Position numbers and translations under genes: made by a program
Notes under the pieces: generated by a model
The model's database searches: none
What the model saw: only the letters and a program-made list of their open reading frames with translations
What the model was told of the DNA's origin: nothing
DNA from: a virus
Reading direction: 5' to 3' (one strand)
Length of the DNA stretch: 64,000 nt
IMG/VR virus record: IMGVR_UViG_3300024312_000003
Coordinates: 116,491 to 180,490 of that record
Part shown: positions 754 to 39,706 of the stretch, one piece after another
Layout: every line of letters begins with the position of its first letter
Position numbering within the stretch: position 1 is the stretch's first letter

Positions 754-779
754 GAGGAGGGAGATTTCTCTCCCTCCTC
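754..779 (-). terminator. hairpin terminator
   Basis: GAGGAGGGAG and its inverted copy form a near-perfect stem with a tiny loop. It lies between the tmRNA and the gene at 270-707 and so may end the tmRNA transcript. Confidence 0.55.
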
Positions 780-899
780 GCATTCCTGCTCTTTCCTCAA
801 TCAAAGAATTTAACTGTCTTTTTCAAATCCATTACAGATTTGATACTCATCAATTAAATCGGCAGGAATATCAGATTCAATAGGTTCGGATCATTATCA

Positions 900-1207
900 C
901 CTACTTGTTATTAAACCTGATAACTAGGTTTTGCTCAAGCGGCCAGGCGCTGAGCAAACGTGCTGTCGTTTGCGGCAGTTAAATTGAGATTTGTATGTTT
1001 CGATTGATTTCTCAATCTCTAACGGAGTTCTCATACTTACTCCGAGTAGTAATCTCCACTAGCTCACCCTGTCGAAACCAGATCTGGCCCACCTAAACAA
1101 ACACAATATTGAATCTGCTTAGGTGGACCAGGTGGGAATCGAACCCACGTCCAGAATGCATTTGCTTTGATTTTCAGTTTCGGTATTTCTACCTCTACAC
1201 ACTACCA
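900..1207 (-). ncRNA. ssrA: circularly permuted (two-piece) tmRNA
   Basis: Read on the minus strand, the 3' part of a tmRNA comes first: T-arm GTGGG-TTCGATT-CCCAC, then acceptor strand CUGGUCC and A-CC, ending at 1122. A 31-nt spacer (1091-1121) follows. Then comes the usual 5' end, GGGCCAGATCTGGTTTCGAC, from 1090. The two acceptor strands pair over 7 bp and keep the G3-U70 wobble that marks alanine tmRNA. A tag frame at 976-935 reads AANDSTFAQRLAA and then TGA. It begins like the standard AAND tags and ends in LAA. A stem GCUCAGCG/CGCUUGAGC (H5) spans the end of the tag, and a pseudoknot (AACCU/AGGUU with GUUAU/AUAAC) lies at 907-930. GGTAGT near 1205 can pair with ACTACT of the 5' piece (H2). 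The CCA is only partly encoded (ACC then T). Outer ends are approximate. It would rescue stalled ribosomes and tag their products for proteolysis. Confidence 0.9.
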
Positions 1208-1208
1208 T

Positions 1209-1706
1209 TTATACTTCAGTCCAAGTTCTGCCATTTCTAATATCAGAAACAGTTGATTTGGATATGTTGTATTTATCAACATAGTAACTGTATGGTTCTT
1301 TTCCGTATTTGATGTTACTAACCTGCTCTATTGTCAAATGCGAATTATTTCTAACATTAATACCTTTAGCAGATCGACCTTTATTTACCATATCATCCAT
1401 ATTGTCTTGATGAGTGCCTGCAAATAAATGATCAGGAGCAACACATTTACGATTATCACAATGATGACAAATCATAATACTGGGGTCAAGAATCTGACCA
1501 CCAATAAATAATTGAAAAGCCCATCTATGAGCGCGTATTTTAGACTGTTCCTCTCTAGATCCAACTGATATCTGACCGTATCCATCTTGATTGAGTTTAC
1601 CTGTCCACTCTATACAATCATTATTTGGATTAAGTTGAAGTTTGTCTATAAAACGTTTTAAGACTTTTTCATCAAATACGATATCTGGATCTAGAGAATT
1701 TGACAT
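1209..1706 (-). CDS. HNH homing endonuclease
   Basis: The protein (165 aa from the ATG at 1706; a GTG at 1742 is in frame) has an HNH_3-type layout. An N-terminal part contains WTGKLNQDGYGQI and AHRWAFQLFIG. The core HHCDNRKCVAPDHLF follows, with paired Cys and His residues, then GTHQDNMDDMVNKGR. The C-terminus (LTIEQVSNIK to SKSTVSDIRNGRTW) looks like a helix-turn-helix DNA-binding motif of the kind found in phage homing endonucleases. The stop codon falls directly before the first base-paired segment of the tmRNA acceptor piece, so the gene sits at the edge of an RNA gene. It would nick or cut a specific DNA site to spread itself. Confidence 0.85.
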   Translation of the reverse strand: MSNSLDPDIVFDEKVLKRFIDKLQLNPNNDCIEWTGKLNQDGYGQISVGSREEQSKIRAHRWAFQLFIGGQILDPSIMICHHCDNRKCVAPDHLFAGTHQDNMDDMVNKGRSAKGINVRNNSHLTIEQVSNIKYGKEPYSYYVDKYNISKSTVSDIRNGRTWTEV

Positions 1707-15058: not shown

Positions 15059-15093
15059 TGGTGCCGGTTGACAGTCTCGAACTGCCGACCTAT
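15059..15093 (-). pseudogene. 3' half of a tRNA gene
   Basis: GGTCGGCAG-TTCGAGA-CTGTC forms a T-arm, followed by AACCGGC-A-CCA. The acceptor strand is the exact complement of GCCGGTT at 15810-15804, about 740 bases away. The 5' side runs into the end of the HNH gene, whose stop codon falls inside it. No anticodon arm is present here, so it is either a remnant or one part of a split gene. Confidence 0.7.
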
Positions 15094-15662
15094 TCAATAA
15101 TTATTGGTTTCACCCAATAACCCCTTGGCGGTTTTTCTATTGAATATATTTTACACCATTTTTCAATTGTCTTATCGGAAACACCATAATCCTTAGAAAT
15201 ATGGGTAGTGGGTTTCGACCAGACTAACTTCTCAAGAGTCTCTTTAGAAGGTCTATCTTTAACTATCCGTGCTCCAATTTTTGAACAGTTTGCTGAGCAA
15301 TATTTAAATTCAGGATAAATAGGGTATTCGCAAACGATACACCGTATACACCCCAATTTAATTCTTTCAGAAAATTCTTTGTTTGGTTCAAAAGAATATT
15401 TATTCATCCAACCATGCAGTTTAGCATGCATTGGATTTGAAAGAATCAACAAATTGTCAGGAGAATTATTTTGTCTATTTTGATCCAGATGATGAACTAC
15501 TTCTCCTTCTAGAAGCGATCTTCCCATCAGATTCTCAGCAACAACAATATGTTCGTAAACATATCCTTCGTAAGATCCCGAAGCTATAGCTCTCGGATGA
15601 TATGGCATCTTGACCAAAACATATCCGTTGGTATCAATTGTTCGTCTAAAAAGTTTGTACAT
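15090..15662 (-). CDS. HNH endonuclease inserted between tRNA halves
   Basis: 190 residues from the ATG at 15662, just after the CCA of tRNA-Thr. Key features are an AVxENLMGRSLLEGE-type start, the core VVHHLDQNRQNNSPDNLLIL with conserved His and Asn, and HAKLHGW. A possible zinc cluster (CIRCIVCEYPIYPEFKYCSA) and a C-terminal helix-turn-helix (HISKDYGVSDKTIEKWCKIY) follow. This is the usual make-up of phage HNH homing enzymes. The gene ends inside the tRNA 3' half, so its insertion probably disrupted that tRNA. Confidence 0.85.
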   Translation of the reverse strand: MYKLFRRTIDTNGYVLVKMPYHPRAIASGSYEGYVYEHIVVAENLMGRSLLEGEVVHHLDQNRQNNSPDNLLILSNPMHAKLHGWMNKYSFEPNKEFSERIKLGCIRCIVCEYPIYPEFKYCSANCSKIGARIVKDRPSKETLEKLVWSKPTTHISKDYGVSDKTIEKWCKIYSIEKPPRGYWVKPIIIE

Positions 15663-15675
15663 GATTTTGATTGGA

Positions 15676-15750
15676 TGGTGCCCTGTCTGTGAATCGAACA
15701 CAGATCGCCGCCTTACAAGGGCGGTGCTAAGACCTTCCAGCTAACAGGGC
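15676..15750 (-). tRNA. tRNA-Thr (TGT)
   Basis: Acceptor GCCCTGT/ACAGGGC, anticodon stem CCGCC-CTTGTAA-GGCGG, T-arm CTGTG-TTCGATT-CACAG, encoded A-CCA. The anticodon is TGT. It is complete although it lies between two halves of another tRNA. Confidence 0.93.
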
Positions 15751-38118: not shown

Positions 38119-39706
38119 TCAAACCGCCGCAGCCGGAAACTTAATCGCTGGATGAGATTCGTAATTTTCAATCTTGATATCTTCGATTTTAAAATCTTCG
38201 ATATTTTTGATATCCGGGTTAAGAACCAATGTTGGCAGAGGCTTAGGCTCTCTCTCAACTTGTTCGACAATAAGATCAATTTGATTTTTGTAGATGTGGG
38301 TATTTCCACCCGTCCAAATAAAATCACCAACTTTCGTATTAGTGACCTGAGCAACCATATGCGTGAGAATAGCATAACTTGCAATGTTAAAAGGAACGCC
38401 CAAAGGAACGTCGGCTGATGTTGAGTTCAATATGGTTCGTTAATCCATACCCGCACCATGACGTGCAGCTGCATGTTTCCATGCATGACCAGACTATATC
38501 ATCTTTCCTATTTGGAAAGCTTTCTGTTTCGAACCACTTGGTTCTACTCTACTTACTTCCAGCGTTTGCTGTGTTTTCGATAGTCGTTGAACGTGCCTCC
38601 AATCATTGGAGGATTCGCTGCTGGTTGTCCAATCCATCTCGTTTTCAAACCATGGCTTTGCTTTGCAGCTCGCAGTGGTGAAATGGCTCTAAGGAGTTTC
38701 TAGCAATTAAGAAAGTTTTCTAATGAGATTACTCTCAAAAGGCGCTCAGTAATTAACGCTGATACAGAAGGCATGAAAGTCTACCACTAGGAATTCCAAT
38801 TTCCTTAGCAATCTTAGCAGCGATTTTGAAACCACTCTCTCCAGATTCTACAGCTTGAGTAATTTCGATTATTCGAGACTCATGACCAGCAGTAATGATA
38901 TCTGCGGTGATTTCTTCCAAAGGAATTGGTTCCACGTCAAACTGGAACAAGCAATGACATGCTGCCAAAGCCATTTTACCTTGAATAACATTATCTTGAG
39001 GACTAATGGTTTCGTCAGGCAGATCGGCAGGATTCCAGGCAGTAACAATGATGCGTCTAGAATAAGGACGATTCTTAATCGTATCAATTGCTTCTTGAAG
39101 CTGATCGATAACTAGACCTGATGGAGTTTTCCAATTGCGCCATTGTGCACCATATACTGGACCGAGATCACCGGATTTAGCAATCGTATATTCAACAAAT
39201 GGATTAACACCACCGTCAAGTAGAAACTTCATGGTTCCTTTAGTAAAACCATTCTTAAGTCCATCTTGCATGTATTCGTTTACTTTGGTACGAATAACAT
39301 CTAGTGGTTCTCCGATATTGTAAATACCAGATTCGATATCTGCTTTTTTCAGATAACCAATTACCTGTTCCTCATGCAGATTATGAGCTTTAGAATATTC
39401 TGAGATCAATTCATTAAAAGGACGAATTCTTTTAATGACAGCGTCTTCTTTAAGAGCCCAGCTGTCCCAGATGTGTACGTCTTTTTCAAGAAGATAATTG
39501 ATGTTGGTATCACCTTTGATGAACCAAATCAGCTCTTCAATGATTCCTCTGGTAAATACCTTCTTAGTCGTCAAAAGAGGAAAACCTTCTCGGAGATTAA
39601 AACGCATCATTGCACCAAAAATAGCAATCGTTCCAGTGTTGGTTCGATCGTCTCTCTCAGTGCCGTTTTCCAAAATATTCTTAACAAGATCTGTGTATTG
39701 TTTCAT
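38119..39706 (-). CDS. thyA: thymidylate synthase, interrupted by a group I intron
   Basis: Exon 1 (39706-38756) runs from MKQYTDLVKNILENGTERDD through PLLTTKKVFTRGI, GDLGPVYGAQWRNW, SRRIIVTAWNPADLP and the active-site Cys segment ALAACHCLFQFDV, to LSCLLYQR. A stop follows at once. Exon 2 resumes after 38428 with SADVPLGVPFNIASYAILTH, THIYKNQI and ESHPAIKFPAA. The break falls in the phosphate-binding QRS motif that every ThyA needs, so the two parts must be joined. The spliced protein would be about 416 to 419 residues, much longer than the 264 of E. coli, with extra segments after WDSWALKED and between FQFDVEPI and IPSGRLSC. It makes dTMP from dUMP. Confidence 0.93.
38428..38755 (-). ncRNA. 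group I self-splicing intron in thyA
   Basis: About 328 bases with no open frame. The core is visible on the minus strand: a Q-like segment GACAACCAGCAGCG (38629-38611 region), a P6-type hairpin CCTCCAATGATTGGAGG, the R element GTTCAACGACTA (38592-38581) and S element AAGATGATATAGTCT (38505-38491), whose GACTAT/ATAGTC form P7. P1 forms between exon GCGU and intron AGCGC, with the splice-site U paired to G. The 5' site is therefore after CGT at 38756. The 3' site is less sure: after the G at 38428 (adds three residues), or before TCAGCC at 38418 (gives consensus QRSADV, and TCAG pairs with CTGA for P10, but leaves no terminal G). Confidence 0.92.

Follow-up and report, generated by a model that had tools for sequence, protein, structure and literature searches.

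A permuted two-piece tmRNA gene of betaproteobacterial type in a phiKZ-like jumbo phage contig

An intact, circularly permuted tmRNA gene was identified on the minus strand, at about 1207-870, of the window, that is, the whole stretch of 64,000 nucleotides analysed here (bases 116,491-180,490 of a 180,490-bp IMG/VR virus record). It very probably encodes a functional two-piece tmRNA of the betaproteobacterial structural type, which would take part in ordinary trans-translation with host factors during infection. A tmRNA releases stalled ribosomes and marks the incomplete protein for degradation. An earlier note, made from the letters alone, had proposed such a gene in a phage and had set beforehand, as its test, a covariance-model match on the minus strand. 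Both relevant families gave one: tmRNA_permuted (RF04321) matched at 1193-935 (76.3 bits against a cut-off of 47; E 7.6e-13 for the 64 kb searched), and beta_tmRNA (RF01850) matched the tRNA-like core at 1159-1060 (91.4 bits against a cut-off of 84; E 2.7e-26), the latter over model positions 75-172 of 331 only. The mRNA-like part, from P2 to the tag and the 3' end, fitted the family models poorly. ARAGORN also reported a permuted tmRNA, at 1213-844 on the same strand, with the tag AANDSTFAQRLAA.

The permuted order was as proposed: the 3' tRNA-like part (1159-1122) is followed by a spacer of 31 nt (1121-1091), the 5' part (1090-1064) and the tag ORF (976-935). All features are listed in Table 1. 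Near the 5' end of the precursor, GUAG pairs with CUAC (about 1049-1046), which differs by one double change from the GUUG/CAAC of Rhodocyclales. As in beta tmRNA of the Rhodocyclales type, CCA is incompletely encoded (ACC is followed by T). Within the intervening sequence, ACCUAAGC/GUUUAGGU lengthen the acceptor stem of the precursor.

Table 1. Features of the tmRNA gene and its surroundings (positions in the window)
Feature	Position	Strand	Evidence
Terminator-like hairpin GAGGAGGGAGA-GAAA-TCTCCCTCCTC, between tmRNA and next gene	754..779	-	consensus scan only
3' structured end: candidate H5 and competing stem	869..931	-	fold
Tag reading frame GCC...TGA, AANDSTFAQRLAA	935..976	-	ARAGORN; resume codon register
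Structured region before tag	1002..1044	-	fold, alignment
5' tRNA-like part: acceptor GGGCCAG, D-like ATCTGGTTTCGA, P2 5' strand CAGGGTG	1064..1090	-	Rfam, ARAGORN
Intervening sequence TAAGC...TTTAGGT, 31 nt, expected to be removed	1091..1121	-	ARAGORN, fold
Acceptor stem 3' strand CTGGTCC + ACC	1122..1131	-	ARAGORN, pair counts
T-arm GTGGG-TTCGATT-CCCAC	1132..1148	-	ARAGORN, pair counts
Precursor 5' part and P2 3' strand (acceptor piece)	1152..1193	-	RF04321 start at 1193, P2 7/7 pairs, alignment
Free-standing HNH homing endonuclease gene	1209..1706	-	PF13392, phrog_59

All 19 pairs of the tRNA-like domain can form (acceptor stem 7/7, T-arm 5/5, P2 7/7), and the acceptor stem GGGCCAG/CUGGUCC keeps its G3-U70 (U-G) pair, in agreement with the earlier note. 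In five pairs, three of them in the acceptor stem and one each in the T-arm and P2, both bases depart from the bacterial consensus. When 23 sequences from phages and bacteria were aligned, 99.3% of the cells were paired and 14 of the 19 pairs varied on both sides; none of 500 shuffles reached this level, and shifting the partners by 1-3 columns lowered it to only 44-53%. Because the pair changes are compensated, they point to selection for structure. The fold of the 348-nt RNA is also far more stable than those of shuffled sequences (z = -6.2, with no equally stable fold among 100 shuffles).

Outside this core the predicted fold is less simple. The structured region before the tag holds a CGGAGU/ACUCCG hairpin, a possible pk1 stem, and a GAUUGA-GAAA-UCAAUC hairpin that is extra, being absent from the bacterial and phage relatives compared; the region is longer here. 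The H5 stem described before (AAACCU/AGGUUU, 931-913) can form, but it is rivalled by a more stable stem of 11 bp (922-912/879-869), which encloses CAAGUAGGU/ACCUAUUG. For the pseudoknot proposed at the same time, a partner is available (GUAUG/CAUAC), though the fold analysis leaves it a candidate only.

The HNH gene lies directly upstream of the tmRNA, with its stop at 1209, about 16 nt or less from the tmRNA core; its start is an ATG at 1706, and a longer ORF with a GTG start reaches 1742. The closeness of the two genes could suggest a decaying tmRNA copy, acquired by gene transfer, into whose 5' region the HNH gene was inserted. The 5' flank indeed differs from that of the beta relatives, and the RF04321 score of 76 is weaker than in phage isolates (112-137) or bacteria (115-174). 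We nevertheless consider decay highly improbable, as broken pairs would then be expected, whereas all helices of the tRNA-like domain are intact with compensatory changes and the tag frame is open. No clear promoter of the tmRNA's own was found, and a TATAAA overlaps the HNH stop codon. phiKZ-like phages rely on their own polymerases. The downstream ORF at 270-800 gave no match in a search of the phage collection.

The tag frame ending in LAA was read correctly in the earlier note: it is open and encodes AANDSTFAQRLAA. Its resume codon, GCC, is in register with the TAANN-GCC context of the beta relatives. Compared with tags of the ANDERFALAA type, it has one more alanine codon and a QR insertion. 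A different use of the RNA might be considered, in which a tmRNA-derived inhibitor or decoy occupies host SmpB or AlaRS with no tagging. Mycobacteriophage DS6A carries a tmRNA reduced to the tRNA-like domain, and a similar molecule inhibits tmRNA (PMC4131195, PMC11915505); the mRNA-like part is also divergent here. However, the AAND start and LAA end of the tag, the resume context and the stop are all kept, and a decoy would need none of them, which makes this explanation very unlikely.

Several further observations were made on viral tags and permuted genes. Among the matches listed, ARAGORN gave 42 distinct viral tags, the window's included, of which 31 end in LAA and 39 in AA. The ending RLAA is common to several phage tags of 12-13 codons (L003, L014, L034, L052, L083, L252 and the window); none of the 18 betaproteobacterial genes compared has it. 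In some viral permuted tmRNAs (contigs L012, L023, L041, L045, L056, L058, L070, L075, L097, L106 and L112) the predicted tag is very long, with 25-30 residues, for example ANDDSFDFAALSFTGNTVGGRVALAA and AKTSTFKFMQVNVDVASNDSAFALAA. Three permuted phage tmRNAs (L095, L098 and L099) have a spacer of ~120 nt whose start resembles a coding stretch (ATGCCAGTAGATATG...). The permuted tmRNA of Herbaspirillum sp. CF444 (L204) has an atypical predicted tag, ANQPQYIAYGT, and its genome contains a second weak match.

Protein homologies identify the contig as a genome fragment from a phiKZ-like jumbo phage. Homologues of dozens of phiKZ proteins were detected by blastp, with much phiKZ synteny, among them gp120 (the major head protein), gp123, gp149, gp152, a gp180 end and the gp87-gp101 head block; homologues of RNA polymerase subunits and tail proteins are also present. 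Internal head proteins were identified via PHROGs, and the RNR is 60% identical to that of Pseudomonas phage PS119XW. Neither chimallin (gp54, which forms the shell of the phage nucleus) nor the early nvRNAP subunits were matched in the contig. Since it ends at the homologues of gp87 and gp180, and no homologues of the gp54-gp86 region were found within it, the part of the genome with these genes is probably missing from the contig. No SmpB gene was found in the contig either, so the tmRNA would have to depend on the host.

Together with the Rfam and ARAGORN matches, this identity upholds the claim of a permuted tmRNA in a phage, and among the phiKZ-like phages checked it is the only tmRNA. 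No permuted tmRNA could be found in 7 phiKZ-like isolates and 50 IMG/VR relatives, several of these records being fragments. A search of the same 57, several of them fragmentary, for standard tmRNA (RF00023) gave only weak matches below the cut-off, probably tRNAs. Such an isolated occurrence in a single contig might raise the suspicion of an assembly chimera, with a bacterial tmRNA fused into a phage contig. We give this almost no weight: the gene lies 117 kb into the 180-kb contig and is flanked on either side by phage genes, and its acceptor-stem form, searched as one exact pattern, occurs in other phages but in none of about 85,000 genomes of bacteria and archaea.

The evidence on this form came from one exact pattern for the GGGCCAG acceptor, which occurred in five viral contigs and in none of the ~85,000 GTDB prokaryote genomes. 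These contigs carry genes for endolysin, tail proteins and tryptophan halogenase and so belong to a different phage group; they are 83-84% identical to the window tmRNA over 119 nt. The best bacterial match was 74% over 93 nt (in a sample of 399 genomes from the order to which Sulfurisoma belongs). In a tree of 69 short sequences, which has little resolution, the window tmRNA fell in a viral-only group of seven with 94% bootstrap. Thus, judged by sequence similarity, the closest relatives of the window tmRNA are those of other phages, not of bacteria. Contigs L025, L046, L089, L109 and L110 (84% identity over 119 nt), which are in the same viral-only group of the tree, share its acceptor stem, but they encode CCA, have a 10-codon tag (ANDERYALAA) and belong to a different phage with halogenase and endolysin genes.

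With the betaproteobacterial two-piece tmRNA (RF01850; for example in the Rhodocyclales Accumulibacter and Sulfurisoma) the gene shares the permuted order and the tRNA-like core and, with the Rhodocyclales type, ACC without an encoded A, the spacer TAAG...TTTAGGT and a tag of the form AAND...LAA. It differs in the acceptor GGGCCAG, a tag of 13 rather than 10 codons (the extra Ala and QR), a longer region before the tag and a different 3' end. All 19 bacterial matches to a core pattern were from Betaproteobacteria.

The idea that permuted tmRNA might be new to phages is rejected by the literature, the IMG/VR scan and the isolates. Of 133 unique phage tmRNA structures, ARAGORN classed 53 as two-piece, 50 of these from marine or aquatic samples, and the OM43 phage Melnitz carries a two-piece form (PMC9004378, 2022). 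The 2025 tmRNA database, whose authors also built RF04321, holds 79 phage sequences (PMC11915505). The two-piece ssrA of Melnitz and of pelagimyophages (PMC9004378) resembles the present gene in being phage-borne and permuted with a complete tag, but it is reported to be of the alphaproteobacterial (SAR11) type with a link to a glutamine riboswitch, whereas the window gene is of the beta type; Rfam gave no riboswitch match in the window.

One generic pattern scan gave at least 119 IMG/VR contigs with a permuted core, and ARAGORN called a permuted tmRNA in about 90 of the matches listed. Related IMG/VR loci were obtained with an alignment as query (55), and none with a single structural protein. 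At G000:97837-108564 (L126), three very large ORFs of 1095-1223 aa are adjacent; the one tested has cadherin/Ig-like domains and is possibly a surface or tail protein. A first DNA similarity search of the phage collection with the window gene returned Streptomyces tRNA-Lys genes only, and the isolates that bear tmRNA were reached by using other phage tmRNAs as queries. Beta-type permuted tmRNA, mostly unannotated, was found in this way in Pseudomonas phages SM1 and PA_L9, Stenotrophomonas phages DLP_6, Marzo and Mendera, Xanthomonas phage XacN1, Acinetobacter phage BUCT628 and Synechococcus phage BUCT-ZZ01. The genes of SM1, DLP_6, Marzo/Mendera, XacN1 and BUCT628 are like that of the window in type (RF04321, 112-137 bits; RF01850, 92-111 bits) and their tags end in AA, for example ANDTSFDVRLAA; these phages differ in not being phiKZ-like and in having Pseudomonas, Stenotrophomonas, Xanthomonas and Acinetobacter hosts. 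Such hosts have one-piece tmRNA, so the form of the gene is no guide to the host. A beta-type tmRNA as proof of a betaproteobacterial host was rejected, as gammaproteobacterial phages carry the beta type.

For a functional two-piece tmRNA, the reading that we prefer, we infer transcription, tagging and a benefit to the phage and, by analogy with the family, processing, charging, use of SmpB and proteolysis. The gene would give a single precursor transcript, from which host RNase P and 3'-processing enzymes would excise the 31-nt spacer. The host would add the remaining CCA, and AlaRS would charge the molecule with alanine via G3-U70, while P2 and adjacent helices would hold the two RNA pieces together. 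With host SmpB, the tmRNA could then rescue ribosomes stalled on broken mRNAs in the infected cell, adding a tag ending in AANDSTFAQRLAA, whose LAA end should be recognised by host proteases of the ClpXP type. The need for rescue may rise if mRNAs are broken by host takeover or by an RNase-type defence.

The novelty is modest: the range of phage tmRNAs now includes phiKZ-like jumbo phages, and an acceptor-stem variant is so far known from phages only (one exact pattern searched). It is possible, though we put it at somewhat below an even chance, that beta-type permuted tmRNA forms a phage-borne lineage that moves between unrelated lytic phages whatever the form of the host's tmRNA, and that this lineage spans phiKZ-like, Samunavirus, Menderavirus, XacN1-like and freshwater groups. 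If so, the infected cell would gain a second tmRNA, one that is built differently and adds a degradation tag belonging to the phage. As SM1 and Mendera share the gene form, they would allow laboratory tests of why a ribosome rescue RNA is brought along by lytic phages, and of whether the two-piece form undergoes processing where the host's tmRNA is one-piece.

Some minor observations concern the rest of the window and related phages. A second homing endonuclease ORF (HNH_3, 15090-15701, minus strand) abuts and overlaps a tRNA-Thr (15676-15750), comparable to the HNH gene beside the tmRNA, and in Stenotrophomonas phage Marzo an HNH gene adjoins a tRNA-Pro/tRNA-Leu/tmRNA cluster. The GC-rich stretch 1705-1906 showed no significant fold (z -1.2) and no Rfam match. 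Strong hairpins at 741-779 and 2404-2443, on opposite strands, are each followed by an identical TATATGTTGTTTA. Finally, a group I intron (38765-38469, minus strand) apparently interrupts a thymidylate synthase gene (38119-39706), as in the T4 td gene, the exon 1 ORF (38753-39706) corresponding to profile positions 1-155 and the exon 2 ORF (38119-38430) to positions 168-265.
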